A stretch of DNA of 39,965 bases from a virus, in IMG/VR virus record IMGVR_UViG_3300032893_000146, positions 1 through 39,965 of that record, one strand, 5' to 3'. Below the pieces are notes generated by a model. That model saw only the letters and a program-made list of their open reading frames with translations. It searched no databases and was not told the origin of the DNA. Numbering within the stretch: the first letter of the stretch is position 1; the number at the start of each line of letters is the position of its first letter. Of this stretch, positions 1 through 39,965 are shown piece after piece. The translations under genes and the position numbers were made by a program.

Positions 1-280
1 AGCTAAAATAGCATCTCTCTTTACCTATGGTTCCAAATTTTTTCTTGTCGACTAGTTTTTTTTCAATCAAAGAGGCTAAAGATCGACAGACGGATTTACG
101 TTCCATGCCGGTTTTTTCAGCTAATTGATTAAGGCTTATCTTATCTGCGGATTTGTGCCATCCGAATGTCTGACGAATAATGACTAAAATAACTCTAAGC
201 TCGCCCTCTGTCAGCGTCTTAAAAATTTCGTCTAAGCAAATATTTGGTGTCTGGGTATGGTTGGGTGCTGAAATTTTCAT
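1..280 (-). CDS. Phage replication protein O-like, N-terminal part (runs off window start)
   Basis: The 93 visible residues resemble the N-terminal DNA-binding domain of lambda-O-type replication initiators. That domain binds origin repeats and recruits the helicase or helicase loader. The visible signs are the opening TPN-I-LDEIF, the segment GELRVILVIIRQTFGWHK (residues 27-44) and the recognition part ISLNQLAEKTGMERKSVCRSL (residues 48-68, quoted in part as family-like). The start at 280 overlaps the stop of the upstream 69-aa gene by four bases (ATGA), which suggests translational coupling. The frame is open at base 1. The matching C-terminal half seems to be the gene entering at the other window edge, so this is probably one gene split by the way a circular genome was opened. 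Confidence 0.85.
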   Translation of the reverse strand, partial: MKISAPNHTQTPNICLDEIFKTLTEGELRVILVIIRQTFGWHKSADKISLNQLAEKTGMERKSVCRSLASLIEKKLVDKKKFGTIGKERCYFS

Positions 281-486
281 TCTTCCACCTCCTCAATATA
301 TCCTATTAAAAATAATTCTTTATAAATATTTTCAGGTACATCGAGAATAGATATTTTCCCTGATTCCAGAAGAGCGTAGGTAGCCTTTCCTTCAAGCGAT
401 AGCCTAGGGTCTTCAAGGATTTCAGTGATTAAAACGGTGTAAAATGAGTTTCGATGAAAAGTCTCTTTTTGTCGTAACTCGTACAT
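277..486 (-). CDS. Small winged-helix-like protein upstream of the replication gene
   Basis: This 69-aa protein has a strong ribosome site (AAGGAG, 8 bases before ATG). Residues 16-44, with the core VLITEILEDPRLSLEGKATY, look like the first helices of the winged-helix domain that opens many phage and plasmid replication initiators (pattern F-V-x-x-I-L-x-D-P-x-L-S-x-x-A-K-x-x-Y). It is too short to be a full initiator and ends in an acidic tail. It overlaps the O-like gene by ATGA, so the two are probably co-translated. It could be an accessory replication factor or a small regulator. Function is inferred only from this weak motif and its position. Confidence 0.7.
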   Translation of the reverse strand: MYELRQKETFHRNSFYTVLITEILEDPRLSLEGKATYALLESGKISILDVPENIYKELFLIGYIEEVEE

Positions 487-530
487 AATTTTTCTCCTTT
501 TTTCATTAAAATAATGATTTAGTGTTGCGC

Positions 531-674
531 TTTAAGGAGAAATCTATTATGGTGAGAGGCATAAGATTTTCGGTTTGTTAGGGGAGATTGGAGTTTACCC
601 TAATAGATTTCTCTTTGAGACTGTTCCATAACAGTCTCTCCTTAAACCCTCTCTCTTCGGAGTGAGGGTTTTTT
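531..674 (+). ncRNA. Candidate structured RNA, unit 1 of a tandem array
   Basis: No convincing gene covers this stretch. It holds nested exact inverted repeats. Bases 537-549 pair with 601-613 over 13 bases. Bases 617-625 pair with 630-638 over 9 bases with a CCAT loop. Bases 531-540 can pair with 637-646 instead, which competes with the first stem and touches the terminator. It ends in a strong intrinsic terminator at 644-674. No good sigma70 promoter was found just upstream, so its 5' end is unknown. A 10-codon open frame with AAGGAG (534-539) starts at 549 on this strand. It may be an antisense or regulatory RNA, or the leader structure of the minus-strand operon read from the other strand. 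Confidence 0.45.
644..674 (+). terminator. Intrinsic terminator T1 with UUCG loop
   Basis: A 12-pair stem with one T-T mismatch (644-655 with 660-671) is closed by C-TTCG-G, the very stable tetraloop, and followed by a T run at 669-674. The minus strand lacks a comparable T run, so it acts in the plus direction. Confidence 0.85.
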
Positions 675-680
675 ATTTCT

Positions 681-696
681 ACAAGAAACTTCTTGT
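681..696 (+). promoter_or_regulatory. Palindromic operator candidate over a promoter -35
   Basis: ACAAGAA-AC-TTCTTGT is a perfect 7-base palindrome directly after terminator T1. It overlaps the TTGTGA -35 candidate of the next unit. Its right half extends to TTCTTGTGAA, the reverse complement of TTCACAAGAA, which lies on the -35 of unit 3 at 922-931. A shared regulator is inferred. Confidence 0.45.
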
Positions 697-722
697 GAAA
701 TATTTTTGGATCTTGCTATCGT
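693..722 (+). promoter_or_regulatory. Promoter candidate for unit 2
   Basis: TTGTGA (693-698), an 18-base spacer and TATCGT (717-722) preceded by TGC, giving an extended -10. Transcription would start near 729, just before the hairpin at 735-756. Confidence 0.45.
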
Positions 723-728
723 AAAGAC

Positions 729-783
729 AGCTTCATAAGGGGATGAACTCCCTTATACTACCCGGCTCGATGGCCGGGTTTTT
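729..783 (+). ncRNA. Candidate short RNA, unit 2 of the tandem array
   Basis: A predicted RNA of about 55 bases lies between the promoter candidate and terminator T2. It would be almost all structure: ATAAGGG (735-741) pairs with CCCTTAT (750-756), followed directly by the T2 stem. No usable open frame is visible. Size and layout resemble the 77-base OOP RNA of lambda, made opposite to gene O. That likeness is inference from position, not from sequence identity. Confidence 0.45.
760..783 (+). terminator. Intrinsic terminator T2
   Basis: ACCCGGC (760-766) pairs perfectly with GCCGGGT (773-779) around a 6-base loop, followed by TTTTT. No T run follows on the minus strand, so it is directional. 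Confidence 0.88.
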
Positions 784-921
784 CATTTTTGTGACCCACC
801 GCAAAAAAAGGGTCGCATTCTCGCAAAATATACTCAAAATCGTTTTGATTTCTAGGTATTTTATTTCACGATCTTGAAAATTCAACCTTAAGCGTTAAGC
901 CTAAAAGGCAAAAAAAAATTA

Positions 922-950
922 TTCACAAGAAATCTCCCATTCATTAAAAT
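922..950 (+). promoter_or_regulatory. Promoter candidate for unit 3
   Basis: TTCACA (922-927), exactly 17 bases, then TAAAAT (945-950). This is the best sigma70-like match in the gap. The -35 lies inside TTCACAAGAA, the motif also found inverted at unit 2. Confidence 0.5.
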
Positions 951-956
951 TGGAAT

Positions 957-1053
957 CTTTGAAATTTGTGAGAGCCTCCTAAGTAACCTCTTTGCAAATA
1001 GGCCTTTGTGTGTTTTTTTCTCTTCATAGCCCCACAGTGTTGTGGGGTTTTTT
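957..1053 (+). ncRNA. Candidate short RNA, unit 3 of the tandem array
   Basis: A transcript starting about 7 bases after the -10 would be near 97 bases long and end at terminator T3. The 5' part is pyrimidine-rich and less structured than in units 1 and 2. The 63-residue minus-strand open frame across it (944-1135) lacks a ribosome site and spans the terminator, so it is not taken as a gene. Confidence 0.45.
1030..1053 (+). terminator. Intrinsic terminator T3
   Basis: CCCCACA (1030-1036), loop GTGT, TGTGGGG (1041-1047), then six T. It works in the plus direction only. Confidence 0.88.
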
Positions 1054-1065
1054 CATTCCAGGATA

Positions 1066-1094
1066 TTGAAATAAAAAGAAAGACTTGATAACGT
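1066..1094 (+). promoter_or_regulatory. Promoter candidate for unit 4
   Basis: TTGAAA (1066-1071), 17 bases, TAACGT (1089-1094), starting 12 bases after the T run of T3. The -10 is only fair. Confidence 0.4.
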
Positions 1095-1100
1095 GACGTT

Positions 1101-1193
1101 GAGTTGTTAGTTATTGCTGTCTTTCGTATTCCCAAAAATCATATCCGTGGTTTTTGGTAAAGGGGTCAAGGGTTATGGCTTGGCCCCTTTTTT
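1101..1193 (+). ncRNA. Candidate short RNA, unit 4 of the tandem array
   Basis: A predicted RNA of about 93 bases with two hairpins: CCAAAAATCA (1132-1141) with TGGTTTTTGG (1148-1157), ten pairs including one wobble, then the T4 stem. It ends exactly at the stop codon of the convergent repressor-like gene, so it could be antisense to that mRNA's 3' end and to the leader of the genes after it. Confidence 0.45.
1159..1193 (+). terminator. Intrinsic terminator T4
   Basis: A 12-pair stem (1159-1170 with 1179-1190, one G-T pair, 8-base loop) followed by TTTTTT. The hairpin lies directly after the stop of the minus-strand repressor gene. On the minus strand only TTT follows the stem, so termination that way would be weak. 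Confidence 0.88.
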
Positions 1194-1488
1194 ATGCTGC
1201 AACCATTTTCCCTTTCAAGATCAAATATTCTTCAATTGGGATTGCGATCACTGCACCCGAGGGTTTTGGTTTCTCTTTTTTGGGAGGCTTCTCTCTCAAA
1301 GTAAGTTCCAAAAGCTCCTTTGCGGAGACTTTTCCTCTCGTGTACATCTCTATTTTCAATGCAAGCTTCCGTGATGGTCTTTGCTTTTCTTCAATGATGT
1401 TATAGAAATAACTTGGCGTAAGATCTAGAGCTAGAGCAAAATCTTTGCCAGATACATTTTCTTCTATTAACCAGTCTTTAATCAACAT
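1192..1488 (-). CDS. Helix-turn-helix Cro/repressor-like regulator
   Basis: This 98-aa protein has an N-terminal helix-turn-helix of the XRE/YdaS type at residues 3-60. GKDFALALDLTPSYFYNI (14-31) carries the turn and recognition helix, and the stretch RPSRKLALKIEMYTRGKVSA (37-56) is typical of Cro-like proteins in which the last helices set the dimer. The C-terminal third is a basic Lys/Pro linker followed by a short hydrophobic end. The start is fixed by AAGGAGG six bases upstream. It is the first gene of the minus-strand early operon, opposite RecT, where Cro or a lytic repressor usually sits. It probably binds the repeats in 1514-1650. Whether it represses lytic or lysogenic genes cannot be told. 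Confidence 0.8.
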   Translation of the reverse strand: MLIKDWLIEENVSGKDFALALDLTPSYFYNIIEEKQRPSRKLALKIEMYTRGKVSAKELLELTLREKPPKKEKPKPSGAVIAIPIEEYLILKGKMVAA

Positions 1489-1513
1489 AACGATCCTCCT
1501 TTTTTAGTCACCT

Positions 1514-1542
1514 AGCATACATAAAAGTATATTTTCCTGCAA
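1514..1542 (-). promoter_or_regulatory. Minus-strand early promoter
   Basis: On the minus strand TTGCAG (1542-1537), 17 bases, TATGCT (1519-1514), about 25 bases before the repressor start. An inverted repeat AAAAGTATAT (1523-1532) and ATATACTTTT (1574-1583) has one arm inside the spacer, a likely operator pair. Confidence 0.6.
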
Positions 1543-1602
1543 GTCCTGTTATAAGGCAATCGGATTTTTAATCATATACTTTTTCTTTTTATGCGAAAAA
1601 GC

Positions 1603-1632
1603 TTGATCCGAAATCGTATGATATGCTATATT
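1603..1632 (+). promoter_or_regulatory. Plus-strand early promoter with flanking inverted repeat
   Basis: TTGATC (1603-1608), 18 bases, TATATT (1627-1632) with an extended TGC before it. CTTGATC (1602-1608) and GATCAAG (1643-1649) form an inverted repeat around the -10 and start site, so a bound regulator would block it. It would drive the recombination block. Confidence 0.6.
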
Positions 1633-1737
1633 TAGGATATTAGATCAAGTACGCGATTAACGTCGACACCCTAGAGGACGATTGCTAAAGTTGGAAAGAT
1701 CTGGTAGAGAGAAAAATAAGACTGCGGAGAGATAAAA

Positions 1738-1986
1738 ATGGACCAAGCTAAGGTAGAAAAAGAAAAAAAAGGATGGGGGAAAATTCAGGCCGCTATTGTT
1801 GTTTGTGCGGTTATTTTCTTTGCATCCTGTGTTTTGCCTTCTGAACTTAAAATCACGATAAATCACAAGCATCATTTCGAGTACAGCTCTTCTTCGATAA
1901 AACTCGAACATGAGCACAAATTTCGATCTTTTGATCGAATCAGTTTAGACCATAACCACAAAGGAACCATGTGGATCCATCCTTAA
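1738..1986 (+). CDS. Small membrane or lipoprotein, His-rich
   Basis: An 82-aa protein with a charged Lys-rich N-terminus (residues 1-16), one hydrophobic segment (residues 17-34, core AAIVVCAVIFFASC) and a polar C-terminal part rich in His (HKHH, HEHK, DHNHKG). FASC at the end of the hydrophobic stretch resembles a lipobox, though the n-region is long. The ribosome site is GGAGAG. It is the first gene of the plus-strand early operon. The histidines could bind metal. No family was recognised. Confidence 0.65.
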   Translation: MDQAKVEKEKKGWGKIQAAIVVCAVIFFASCVLPSELKITINHKHHFEYSSSSIKLEHEHKFRSFDRISLDHNHKGTMWIHP

Positions 1987-2018
1987 AACAAGAAAAAACT
2001 TTAAAAAGAGAGGAAAAT

Positions 2019-2168
2019 ATGTCATACGAGGGATTTTGCCAAGACATATATGAATATATGTTTTGTGAAGAAGAGATTAGAGGGTTGTCCGAGGAGTATC
2101 GCCCTATTGATCCATACGCTAACTTTGATAGCTTAGAAGATTACGAGAACAAAGTTTATAGACTATAA
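2019..2168 (+). CDS. Small acidic protein of unknown function
   Basis: A 49-aa protein starting MSYEGFCQDIYEY. This ATG was chosen over the one at 1971 because AGAGAGG precedes it at good spacing, while the longer form would overlap the previous gene. It is acidic (many Glu and Asp) with several Tyr. It sits 12 bases before recT in the same operon. Small acidic proteins before phage recombinases are common but varied in role. No function can be given. Confidence 0.65.
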   Translation: MSYEGFCQDIYEYMFCEEEIRGLSEEYRPIDPYANFDSLEDYENKVYRL

Positions 2169-2180
2169 AGAGAGGTAAAA

Positions 2181-3005
2181 ATGAACACACAAGTTGCCGT
2201 TGTCGATGAGTTTGAGAACTCAATTCAGAGCATCTCTAAGATGCAAACCATGTGCTCTACGCTCATGAAAACGAAACACTATCAAAAGATGGGTGAAGAG
2301 GGAATTTTTGCCATCGTCACTAAGGCAAAGAGCATTGGTCTAGACCCGCTCGAAGCTTTAAACGGTGGCCTTTATTTTGTTCAAGGGAAAGTGGGGATGT
2401 CATCGGAAACGATGGCATCTCTCATCCGTGGAGCTGGCCATAGCATCATAAAAGATCCTAAGAGCAATAACGATATATGCATTTTACACGGGAAGAGAAA
2501 AGATAACGGGGATACATGGACAATCACCTTTTCACTAGACGACGCAAGGCGTGCTGGTCTGATGAAAAACATGTATGAGAAATACCCAGCAATCATGTTG
2601 TATAATCGCTCTATGTCAATGTTAGCTAGACAACTGTTTCCTGACGTGATTAAAGGCGCAGGATATACTCTCGATGAGCTTAAAGAAATCGAGAGGTCTA
2701 ACAAGATCGAACAGCATCCTTCAGTTAATTTGCAAACGGGAGAGGTTCAGGAAGTGATCGCAGAGGTTGAAGAGGTTAAGAGACCATCCGCCGAAGAGAT
2801 TGAAAATCTAGAAAAGATCCTGCTAGAATGCTCGCACGACTATCAAGAAAGTGTCGAAAAGTCCTTACGCAGCATGAAAATTTCTAGTCTTAAAGATGTT
2901 AATTCCACGGTTTACGTAAGACTTCACACTGCAGCTCTAAAAAAGCGTGAGGAACACAAGCTATCACAACAAGAGGAGTCTAATGAATCCGTCGCAGTTG
3001 CTTGA
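2181..3005 (+). CDS. recT: RecT-family single-strand annealing protein
   Basis: This 274-aa protein matches the RecT group of phage recombinases, which coat single-stranded DNA and anneal complementary strands after an exonuclease resects an end. Visible signs: KAKSIGLDPLEALNGGLYFV (48-67), where the family has the GL-P-A pattern; ETMASLIRGAGHSI (76-89); and the basic-to-core stretch DDARRAGL (120-127) followed by YNRSMSMLARQLFPDVIKGA (141-160). After residue 170 comes a charged helical tail, usual for the family. The ribosome site is AGAGAGG. It lies in one operon with the YqaJ exonuclease gene, the classic two-component pairing. It acts in the cytoplasm on replicating phage DNA. Confidence 0.92.
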   Translation: MNTQVAVVDEFENSIQSISKMQTMCSTLMKTKHYQKMGEEGIFAIVTKAKSIGLDPLEALNGGLYFVQGKVGMSSETMASLIRGAGHSIIKDPKSNNDICILHGKRKDNGDTWTITFSLDDARRAGLMKNMYEKYPAIMLYNRSMSMLARQLFPDVIKGAGYTLDELKEIERSNKIEQHPSVNLQTGEVQEVIAEVEEVKRPSAEEIENLEKILLECSHDYQESVEKSLRSMKISSLKDVNSTVYVRLHTAALKKREEHKLSQQEESNESVAVA

Positions 3006-3180
3006 AGAAATCAATTTGAAGTACGGAGAATGGCTAGATCAAGCAGGGGACAACAGTCCCTTGCTCATGAATCAGATTCTTGCCCAAATGGTGTTGATCG
3101 AAAGAGATGAAAAAAACTATTACTTAAAGAGGCTGCGATATGAGACTAGAAGTCCCTCAGGGGTCCCAAGAATGGATTGA
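2983..3180 (+). CDS. Small protein between recT and exonuclease
   Basis: A 65-aa protein (MNPSQLLEEINLKYGEWLD...). The ATG at 2983 is preceded by AGAGGAG, which decides the start. It overlaps the last 23 bases of recT and the first 41 bases of the exonuclease gene, so all three are probably translated together. It looks like two amphipathic helices with a basic end. It may be an adaptor for the recombination pair, but there is no motif to prove this. Confidence 0.65.
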   Translation: MNPSQLLEEINLKYGEWLDQAGDNSPLLMNQILAQMVLIERDEKNYYLKRLRYETRSPSGVPRMD

Positions 3181-3994
3181 ACTAAGAAGTTCGAAGATAA
3201 CAGCAACGGACTCTAGCGTAATAATGGAAGTTAGCCCTTGGAAAACTCCATATCAACTTTGGATGATTAAAAAGGGATTTTTGGAAGATTCTCCGCAAAC
3301 AGAGGCAATGAAACGAGGGCTTTCTCTCGAGCCTGAAGCGAGATCTAAATTTGAAGAATCTTTCGGAGAAAGATTTTCGCCTACAGTCATTGTTAGCGAC
3401 GAAATAACCTGGATGATGGCCTCTTTAGATGGTATCTCAGAATCTGGAAAAGAAATCGTAGAAATAAAATGCCCTTTAAATCGAGATGACCAGAGGATGG
3501 CTTCTGAAGGGCTAATTCCTTCTAAATATTATCCGCAACTTCAGCATCAGATCGCCGTTTGTGGTGTTGAGAAGGCTCATTATTATTCTTATGACGGTCA
3601 TGAGGGCGCACACGTCATCGTGAAAAGGGATGAGCCTTATATCAAAAAAATGATGGAACTTGAAAAAGAATTTTACGAAAGCCTTGATAATTTTGTTGTT
3701 CCAAAGATGAAAGAAAAGGACTTTATCTATCGTCAGGATGATGATTGGGAGGAATGTGTTTCTCTTTGGCGAGAGTGTTCTAGGTTGAGAAAGAAATATG
3801 AGGATCAAGAAAATTTCTTCAAATCTAGGCTTTTAGAAATGTGTTCTGGAAAAAATACGAAAGGATGCGGTATATCGGTTAGCAAGCATATGAGAAAAGG
3901 CGCTATCGTTTACAAAAACGTTCCTGGAATTGAGCTTTTGGATGTTGAAAAAGGCCGTGGAGACCCTATTGAAGTATGGAGAATAACCGAATAA
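3140..3994 (+). CDS. YqaJ/lambda-type exonuclease
   Basis: A 284-aa nuclease of the PD-(D/E)XK class that degrades one strand of linear double-stranded DNA 5' to 3', giving single strands to RecT. Motifs in order: GSQEWIELRSSKITAT (8-23), the family's opening; RGLSLEPEAR (59-68) with the first acidic residues; SLDGI (95-99) with the catalytic Asp; VEIKCP (107-112) with the E-x-K pair; and YYPQLQHQIAV (130-140), the glutamine motif. The C-terminal 100 residues are a charged helical region. The length is within the range of YqaJ proteins, somewhat above lambda Exo. AGAGG precedes the start. Confidence 0.92.
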   Translation: MRLEVPQGSQEWIELRSSKITATDSSVIMEVSPWKTPYQLWMIKKGFLEDSPQTEAMKRGLSLEPEARSKFEESFGERFSPTVIVSDEITWMMASLDGISESGKEIVEIKCPLNRDDQRMASEGLIPSKYYPQLQHQIAVCGVEKAHYYSYDGHEGAHVIVKRDEPYIKKMMELEKEFYESLDNFVVPKMKEKDFIYRQDDDWEECVSLWRECSRLRKKYEDQENFFKSRLLEMCSGKNTKGCGISVSKHMRKGAIVYKNVPGIELLDVEKGRGDPIEVWRITE

Positions 3995-5526: not shown

Positions 5527-5690
5527 TGCTGAAAGATGACGAATACCAAGAAATCAAAGATGCTATTTTAAACATTCTTGTTTTCCATAGTGAAAAGTTA
5601 GGCAAAATTTCATTTGCTAGCGCCAGGATTGAAATAGATAACTTTATTGAAAAATTAATAGAGAAAAGACAATGTCAGGAAAAAGAATAG
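5526..5690 (+). CDS. Small helical protein overlapping the recombinase
   Basis: A 54-aa frame starting MLKDDEYQEIKDAIL, entered by a TAATG overlap with the membrane protein gene and ending 19 bases inside the recombinase gene. Two amphipathic helices are likely. Overlap on both sides argues for a real, co-translated gene. Function unknown. Confidence 0.6.
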   Translation: MLKDDEYQEIKDAILNILVFHSEKLGKISFASARIEIDNFIEKLIEKRQCQEKE

Positions 5691-6274
5691 GATACGCACG
5701 TGTAAGTACAGCCGAGCAAAATCCTGATAGGCAACTAGAAGGAATTGTCTTGGATAAAAAATTTATAGATTACTGTTCAGGAAAGGATACCAATCGCCCA
5801 CAACTAAAGATCATGCTTGACTATCTGAGAGAAGATGACGAACTTTTTGTGCACTCCCTTGATAGGTTGGCCAGGAATATGAAAGATTTACGCCAGCTCG
5901 TAGATGATCTGACAGCTCGGAGTATAAAAATCCACTTTATCACCGAAGGTCTTGTTTTTACCGGAGAAGACTCCCCCATGGCAATGTTAACGCTGCAAAT
6001 ATTTGGTTCTGTGGCAGAATTTTTGCGAAAAGTGAACCTTGAAACGCAAGCAGAAGGGATTAGATTAGCAAAGGCGAGAGGAGTCTATGAAGGTAGAAAA
6101 TCTATATTTTGCAATGAGCTCGAAGAAAAAATACGCATGGAAATGCTTACACGTGATAAAAAATCAGATATAGCTAAAAATCTGGGAATTTCTCGCACTT
6201 CCCTTTATAGATTTTTGAAGATCATCGAGGAAAAGGACAAAATTACCTGGTCATGTGTCCCACAGGTAGCATAA
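5672..6274 (+). CDS. Serine recombinase (resolvase/invertase family)
   Basis: A 200-aa small serine recombinase, which cuts and rejoins DNA at short paired sites through a Ser-DNA link. Order: catalytic domain with GYARVST (Arg10 and the nucleophile Ser12), SGKDTNRPQLKIML, DRLARN (Arg65 and Arg68), TGEDSPMAML, then the long E-helix from AEFLRK (Arg119) and Glu124. The C-terminal helix-turn-helix lies at about 155-185 (KSDIAKNLGISRTSLYRFL). The usual ER after the helix core is ET here (Thr125), a small departure. Length is typical. It is the only site-specific recombinase seen, so it may resolve dimers, invert DNA or integrate the phage. Its sites were not found. Confidence 0.92.
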   Translation: MSGKRIGYARVSTAEQNPDRQLEGIVLDKKFIDYCSGKDTNRPQLKIMLDYLREDDELFVHSLDRLARNMKDLRQLVDDLTARSIKIHFITEGLVFTGEDSPMAMLTLQIFGSVAEFLRKVNLETQAEGIRLAKARGVYEGRKSIFCNELEEKIRMEMLTRDKKSDIAKNLGISRTSLYRFLKIIEEKDKITWSCVPQVA

Positions 6275-39370: not shown

Positions 39371-39965
39371 TTATATGTTACATCCCATAGATTTTAATGA
39401 TTTATTTAAATTTTCCATAAAATCGTTTATCGAGTAATTTATTCTTACTTTTTTTGTACCTAGATTGTCCGTAATCTCTAGAGAATCAAAGAAATCCGTT
39501 GTAAATATTCCGGATTTTCGTATTTTTTCCCAATGGGATTTGATAAACTTGCCACACAGAGTTCTCGTTTCTGAAGCTTTGAGTGTAAGATCATCCTGTT
39601 CTTTAAGTTTTTTATCCTGAATCATTTCTTGGGTTTCCTTCATATGGTCGGGGTTCTTGCAAAAGTAGAATATAGCAGAGTCAAGCGTACTCGATAGCAC
39701 AAACTCTGGTCTCGTGCAATATTTCGTGGATTTGCTCACGGTTTCTTCATCAAACTGTTGGGTCAAACGTATTTTGTCGTGCGCTGAAAATCCAAGCCCG
39801 TTAAGACAATCATAAATTTTAGATGAAGAACCACCAACCAAACCTTCGACCTTTTGCATCTTTCCAGGATCCGGGTTCGGAGGAGGTAAGGTGGTGGTTT
39901 TATTTATAGTTTCTTTTGTATTAGTTTCTTTTGTGGGTGTCTTTAGGACACTGGGGGGGGTGTCT
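39371..39965 (-). CDS. Replication protein O-like, C-terminal part (runs off window end)
   Basis: The frame is open to the window edge and the first Met inside it (39859) has no ribosome site, so it is the C-terminal 197 residues of a longer protein. It begins with a low-complexity Thr/Pro/Lys linker (PSVLKTPTKETNTKET, then TTTLPPPNPDPG), followed by a helical domain from KIYDCLNGLGFSAHDKIRLT onward. Phage O-like proteins have this order: winged helix, linker that overlaps the origin, then a helical partner-binding domain. The N-terminal winged helix is found at bases 1-280. Together they should form one gene of roughly 300 codons. Confidence 0.75.
   Translation of the reverse strand, partial: DTPPSVLKTPTKETNTKETINKTTTLPPPNPDPGKMQKVEGLVGGSSSKIYDCLNGLGFSAHDKIRLTQQFDEETVSKSTKYCTRPEFVLSSTLDSAIFYFCKNPDHMKETQEMIQDKKLKEQDDLTLKASETRTLCGKFIKSHWEKIRKSGIFTTDFFDSLEITDNLGTKKVRINYSINDFMENLNKSLKSMGCNI
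39907..39934. repeat. Iteron-like repeat pair in the replication gene linker
   Basis: TAGTTTCTTTTGT occurs at 39907-39919 and again at 39922-39934, period 15. On the coding strand it encodes K-E-T twice. In lambda the origin repeats lie in the same part of gene O. More copies may lie beyond the window edge. Confidence 0.45.

Follow-up and report, generated by a model that had tools for sequence, protein, structure and literature searches.

Tandem plus-strand terminators opposite a replication-initiator leader in a soil phage group: a possible plasmid-style antisense control

What are four consecutive intrinsic terminators doing in a stretch of phage DNA that holds no gene in their direction? 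The question is raised by the window studied here, which takes in all 39,965 bases of an IMG/VR virus record from a soil phage and in which a gap of ~700 bases interrupts a minus-strand operon. Heading the operon is a small, single-domain helix-turn-helix (HTH) regulator of the Cro/Cop-like kind (1192–1488, minus; PHROG 35 transcriptional repressor, E 4e-7), and related HTH proteins occupy the equivalent position in 50 further loci. Past the gap, the first gene is a 69-aa open reading frame (ORF; 277–486, minus, from the ORF list and the sequence), for which PHROG and Pfam profile searches gave no family match and whose stop overlaps the start of the next gene by 4 nt (ATGA). This next gene encodes an O-like replication initiator and carries its own Shine–Dalgarno (SD)-like sequence; it is split by the record ends, with the N-terminal part at 2–280 (minus; PF04492 Phage_rep_O, E 8e-14, and O-like PHROGs) and the remainder at 39371–39964 (minus). 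The split lies beside a G run, and the two parts are out of frame with each other; the record is likely to be a circle that has dropped or acquired a few bases at this point. The original prediction saw in these flanks the arrangement of lambda, and a regulator and an O-like gene are indeed in place; however, the ORF list and the PHROG profiles place no cII between them, and the 69-aa ORF intervenes between the gap and O.

The opposite, plus-strand operon carries RecT (2181–3005) and a YqaJ exonuclease (3140–3994). A DNA-invertase-family serine recombinase is encoded at 5672–6274 (plus; PHROG 125, E 3e-51), and among the proteins scanned there was neither a tyrosine integrase nor CI. The host is uncertain, since the top cellular match of a terminase profile search was a Chlamydiia MAG contig (L124, 45% identity), followed by Alphaproteobacteria; these matches are a hint of intracellular hosts, not proof, and the RecT profile had no match among bacterial genomes.

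Within the gap, the terminators predicted at 644–674, 760–783, 1030–1053 and 1159–1193 are all present, delimited by our scan as 644–671, 760–779, 1028–1049 and 1159–1190 (all plus), with a T run after each. The terminator scan found none on the minus strand of the gap, and the ORF list agrees with the earlier statement that the gap holds no credible plus-strand gene. Close to zero such terminators are expected by chance: 20 dinucleotide shuffles of the interval produced none scoring at least 15, and a simple scan of bases 1–3000 gave 8 sites on both strands against 2.4 expected. The units are spaced 100–270 bases apart with promoter-like sites in between, those before units 2, 3 and 4 having been predicted correctly at 693–722 (TTGTGA-18-TATCGT, z 1.6), 922–950 (TTCACA-17-TAAAAT, z 3.4) and 1066–1094 (TTGAAA-17-TAACGT, z 1.4; all plus), where the z scores presume an E. 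coli-like polymerase that may not be the host's. Unit 1 has a previously unlisted site at 525–553 (plus; TTGCGC-17-TATGGT), weak by E. coli rules (z −0.75) and of a motif that recurs in relatives. From predicted starts and terminators, the plus-strand RNAs would span 560–674 (~115 nt; fold z −3.8), ~729–785, ~957–1055 and ~1101–1195, the last terminator sitting at the regulator's stop codon. By position, then, they would be antisense to the leader between the regulator and the replication genes, as originally proposed; with no cII present and unit 4 ending at the regulator's stop, they would oppose the leader and not, as OOP does, the coding end of a regulator.

Compared with shuffles, units 1, 2 and 4 fold more stably (z −4.8, −3.0 and −4.1) and contain additional stable hairpins, whereas unit 3 is not more stable (z −1.6) and has none; the minus-strand folds of the units are likewise strong. 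An Rfam scan gave no match, and no DNA similarity was found among phages and plasmids. A 10-codon "leader peptide" at 549–581 (plus) was rejected, its SD-like sequence being the complement of the anti-SD arm described below and lying upstream of the predicted RNA start.

The plus-strand terminators are a trait of a phage group and not of this contig alone. Syntenic relatives were gathered by RecT and terminase searches; as most loci anchored on the terminase did not include the interval within 5 kb, nine records were followed via RecT. A search with the regulator protein under strict patterns gave no relatives, and a scan for closer relatives with locus L012 added nothing further. The first set, which takes in the window, comprised 22 intervals from the regulator to the first gene on the O side, and a second, independent set of 47 intervals was obtained with a regulator HMM from previously unused loci of a wider RecT scan. 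The first set held 38 plus-strand terminators against 2 on the minus strand (0.65 and 0.05 expected), both of the latter being the reverse of plus-strand ones, and the second 46 against 7 (0.9 and 0.7 expected), so strand and place are established by sequence statistics. At least one plus-strand terminator occurs in 34 of the 47 intervals of the second set and 13 have none; most carry one unit, ten carry two and one carries three. Four units, found in the window and in locus L016, are the extreme, one or two being usual. The array of L016 is as large as the window's: four plus-strand terminators lie within 400 bases (1977–2370), ahead of the first minus-strand replication-side gene, and a fifth follows further along (2957–2980).

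The unit sequences vary between phages. The terminator stems, whose loss from close relatives had been named as evidence against the prediction, are retained. In the one alignable trio (L004, L011 and L012), substitutions are compensating: both partners have been replaced in 5 of 20 terminator stem pairs and pairing is kept in 98% of cells, a count from three sequences only. The same trio shares a nearly unchanged block, TCATTATTTTCAAC.AAATTCA.ATTT (L004 3968–3996 and the matching stretches of L011 and L012), just upstream of the promoter-like site of the second unit and better conserved than the unit itself.

Promoter-like sites are enriched along with the terminators. The motif TTGC[AG]-N16-19-TA occurs near the O-side end of 11 of the 22 intervals (0.9 expected) and, in the second set, of 6 of the 47 (1.6 expected). 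Scored against shuffles, first-unit promoters reach a mean z of 1.21 on the plus strand (n=29) against −0.26 on the other, and internal ones a moderate 0.74 (n=12) against 0.35. At the far end, 25 of 50 phages have their final terminator no more than 60 nt from the stop of the regulator, where chance would give 8.8. Of the OOP-like antisense array originally proposed, the directionality, conservation, enriched promoter-like sites and pO/OOP placement stand, while the cII target is missing and the number of units is unusual.

What the units might act on is suggested by the opposite strand. The plus-strand RNA of several relatives folded better together with its own, untranscribed promoter sequence, which pointed to the other strand, on which an anti-SD segment makes up the left arm of the repeat. 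We compared the leaders of 67 phages with 171 control genes from the same loci, gene starts being assigned by rule and the pairing hypothesis having arisen from part of the same 67 leaders. Pairing between SD and anti-SD had a mean z of −0.92 in the phages and −0.03 in the controls, and pairing between the anti-SD arm and an arm further upstream −1.36 and −0.07; z fell below −2 in 19% and 28% of the phages, respectively, and in 2.9% of the controls. Both pairings persisted, at −0.76 and −1.34, across 58 clusters of dissimilar leaders, and the enrichment of these alternative pairings is thus, like that of the promoter-like sites, a matter of statistics over many sequences. With the leader blocked upstream of −62, predicted access to the SD fell in comparison with controls (p 2e-5), with a drop above 0.3 in only 8 of the 67 leaders and a rise in 3. 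The switch signal is mixed when phages are taken singly, strong in L256, L004, L005 and G004 and weak in the window. Where pO-like promoters are recognisable, the predicted start mostly lies just past the anti-SD, such that the antisense RNA would cover the upstream arm and spare the anti-SD.

In the window, the leader ahead of the 69-aa ORF has the look of an RNA switch with two states, in which an anti-SD segment may pair either with the ribosome site or with an upstream arm. The SD of the 69-aa ORF is AAGGAG (494–499, minus); the anti-SD segment AUUUCUCCUUA (533–543, minus) matches the ribosome site AAAGGAGAAAA and forms with the SD a duplex of −11.7 kcal/mol (z −4.5). It falls within an arm at 534–549 that is part of an inverted repeat (I2, 90% over 20 nt), the complementary, pre-emptor-like upstream arm being at 600–615 (minus); a second possible upstream arm at 637–646 (minus) is complementary to 531–540 (inverted repeat I12, 10/10). 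The predicted unit 1 RNA covers the arm at 600–615 and spares the anti-SD, so its binding would be expected to set the anti-SD free and shut off the ribosome site. At equilibrium the closed-SD form is favoured by 3.5 kcal/mol (−51.6 against −48.1 kcal/mol), and an open state would depend on folding during transcription; as the upstream arm is synthesised first, it could be set at that stage, a step that we infer. Predicted SD access in the window is low either way (0.10 against 0.03).

Taken together, these observations suggest that the gap serves as leader to the minus-strand mRNA running from the regulator to the replication genes and that it is faced by short pO/OOP-type antisense units, each with its own start and terminator, among which unit 1, nearest the replication genes, would most likely act as a plasmid-type countertranscript on the anti-SD switch; we give this reading, drawn from sequence evidence, a probability of a little over 0.4. 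While the leader is being made, its upstream arm (600–615, perhaps also 637–646) would pair with the anti-SD arm (534–549) and leave the ribosome site free. The RNA of unit 1, starting just past the anti-SD arm and complementary to the upstream arm, would on binding free the anti-SD to pair with the ribosome site (494–499) and shut translation of the first gene. In the window, the ORF directly under the putative switch is the 69-aa one, and O would be partly shut through the ATGA overlap. Production of the RNAs, their binding and the resulting repression are inferred, as is a role in dosage, whereby more phage copies would yield more antisense RNA and synthesis of the initiator would be restrained. 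Units 2–4, whose functions are not explained by the switch, would extend the opposed region and may supply further antisense RNA or hinder convergent transcription; the final terminator would stop antisense transcripts from running into the regulator gene. The broader proposal, which we advance more tentatively, is that uncultured soil phages of a large group may control the initiator plasmid-style, with an anti-SD and pre-emptor leader switch and a countertranscript from a pO-like promoter; the window would then be a four-unit, graded and copy-number-sensing brake on replication.

The main rival, which we consider unlikely, is that transcription itself does the work: the pO-like promoters would impede transcription from the regulator to O, the RNAs would be immaterial and the terminators would keep the effect local. 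This has a precedent in lambda, where pO lowers transcription from pR and affects replication, OOP RNA leaves the stability of the O–P mRNA unaltered, and pO is accordingly reported to act on replication mainly by interfering with pR transcription and not via OOP RNA (PMC3985674). Interference would account for several units and fits the enrichment of plus-strand promoter-like sites, but it gives no reason to expect that anti-SD and upstream-arm pairings should be enriched in the leaders. Those same promoter-like sites, and the 100–270 bases between units, count against the terminators serving solely as insulation, keeping stray antisense transcripts out of the regulator gene, with functionless short RNAs; a stack of terminators requires neither spacing nor promoters. 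Redundant terminators are common and the final one often adjoins the regulator's stop, and we nevertheless think this account improbable.

The structured units 1, 2 and 4 could instead be read as trans-acting small RNAs directed, in part or altogether, against phage or host messages, and unit 1 (605–675, plus) pairs with the ribosome site of the exonuclease (3140–3994) at z −4.1, the best of 28 genes, which may be chance. Phage ribosome sites are not generally enriched in pairing (mean z −0.3 to +0.4), with no convincing target pattern, and the unit sequences differ among phages, which makes such a role quite improbable. Lowest of all we rate the idea that the hairpins act on the minus-strand mRNA, in its processing or stability, and that their resemblance to plus-strand terminators is secondary: strong minus-strand folds would fit, but the T runs are confined to one strand and hairpins in an mRNA do not need them.

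If the antisense units do act on the leader switch as a countertranscript would, the phage group, with repeated, strand-specific units facing a switch-like initiator leader, would be a clear and testable case of antisense control of replication, would bear on the long-debated role of lambda pO/OOP and would link plasmid copy-number control with phage early regions. Control by a leader switch and an antisense RNA is known mainly from plasmids, and we found no report of such an arrangement in a phage in the open-access literature, most subscription papers being outside our coverage. The leader and unit 1 fit a small reporter, so neither the phage nor its host is needed to test the idea.

Among known systems, lambda pO/OOP is the closest in layout. 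Both have a promoter just ahead of O and directed away from it (here the promoter-like site at 525–553), and in both a short RNA, predicted here, runs opposite the early mRNA to an intrinsic terminator that lies between the regulator and O; the Rfam and DNA searches found no sequence similarity. OOP overlaps the 3' end of cII, whereas the window has no cII and no overlap with the coding end of the regulator, and up to four units are found here. The O-side leader here also has the anti-SD and upstream-arm pairings of the putative switch, neither of which the lambda O leader shows; the OOP terminator itself is picked up by our scanner. In mechanism, the proposed switch resembles that of the plasmids pT181 and pSK41, where a stem forms at the start site and its 5' arm can pair with an upstream pre-emptor instead, opposed by the antisense RNAI (PMC5703833). 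An antisense RNA opposite the initiator leader is shared, for unit 1 by position and prediction only, and pairings that would let an upstream arm compete for the 5' arm are enriched across the phage group, but the equilibrium fold of the window is the closed form. The initiator here is a phage O-like protein and not a plasmid Rep, the switch here is predicted, and pT181 acts mainly through transcription termination. Small DNA-binding regulators combined with antisense RNAs ahead of the initiator gene are found in pIP501 and pMV158 (PMC5703833). Of these, pIP501 works by attenuation, and a block close to the start site is the presumed action of pMV158 RNAII; with CopR and RNAIII of the one and CopG and RNAII of the other, the phage locus nevertheless matches them in the order of a small DNA-binding regulator, a leader with an antisense RNA (predicted here) and an initiator gene.
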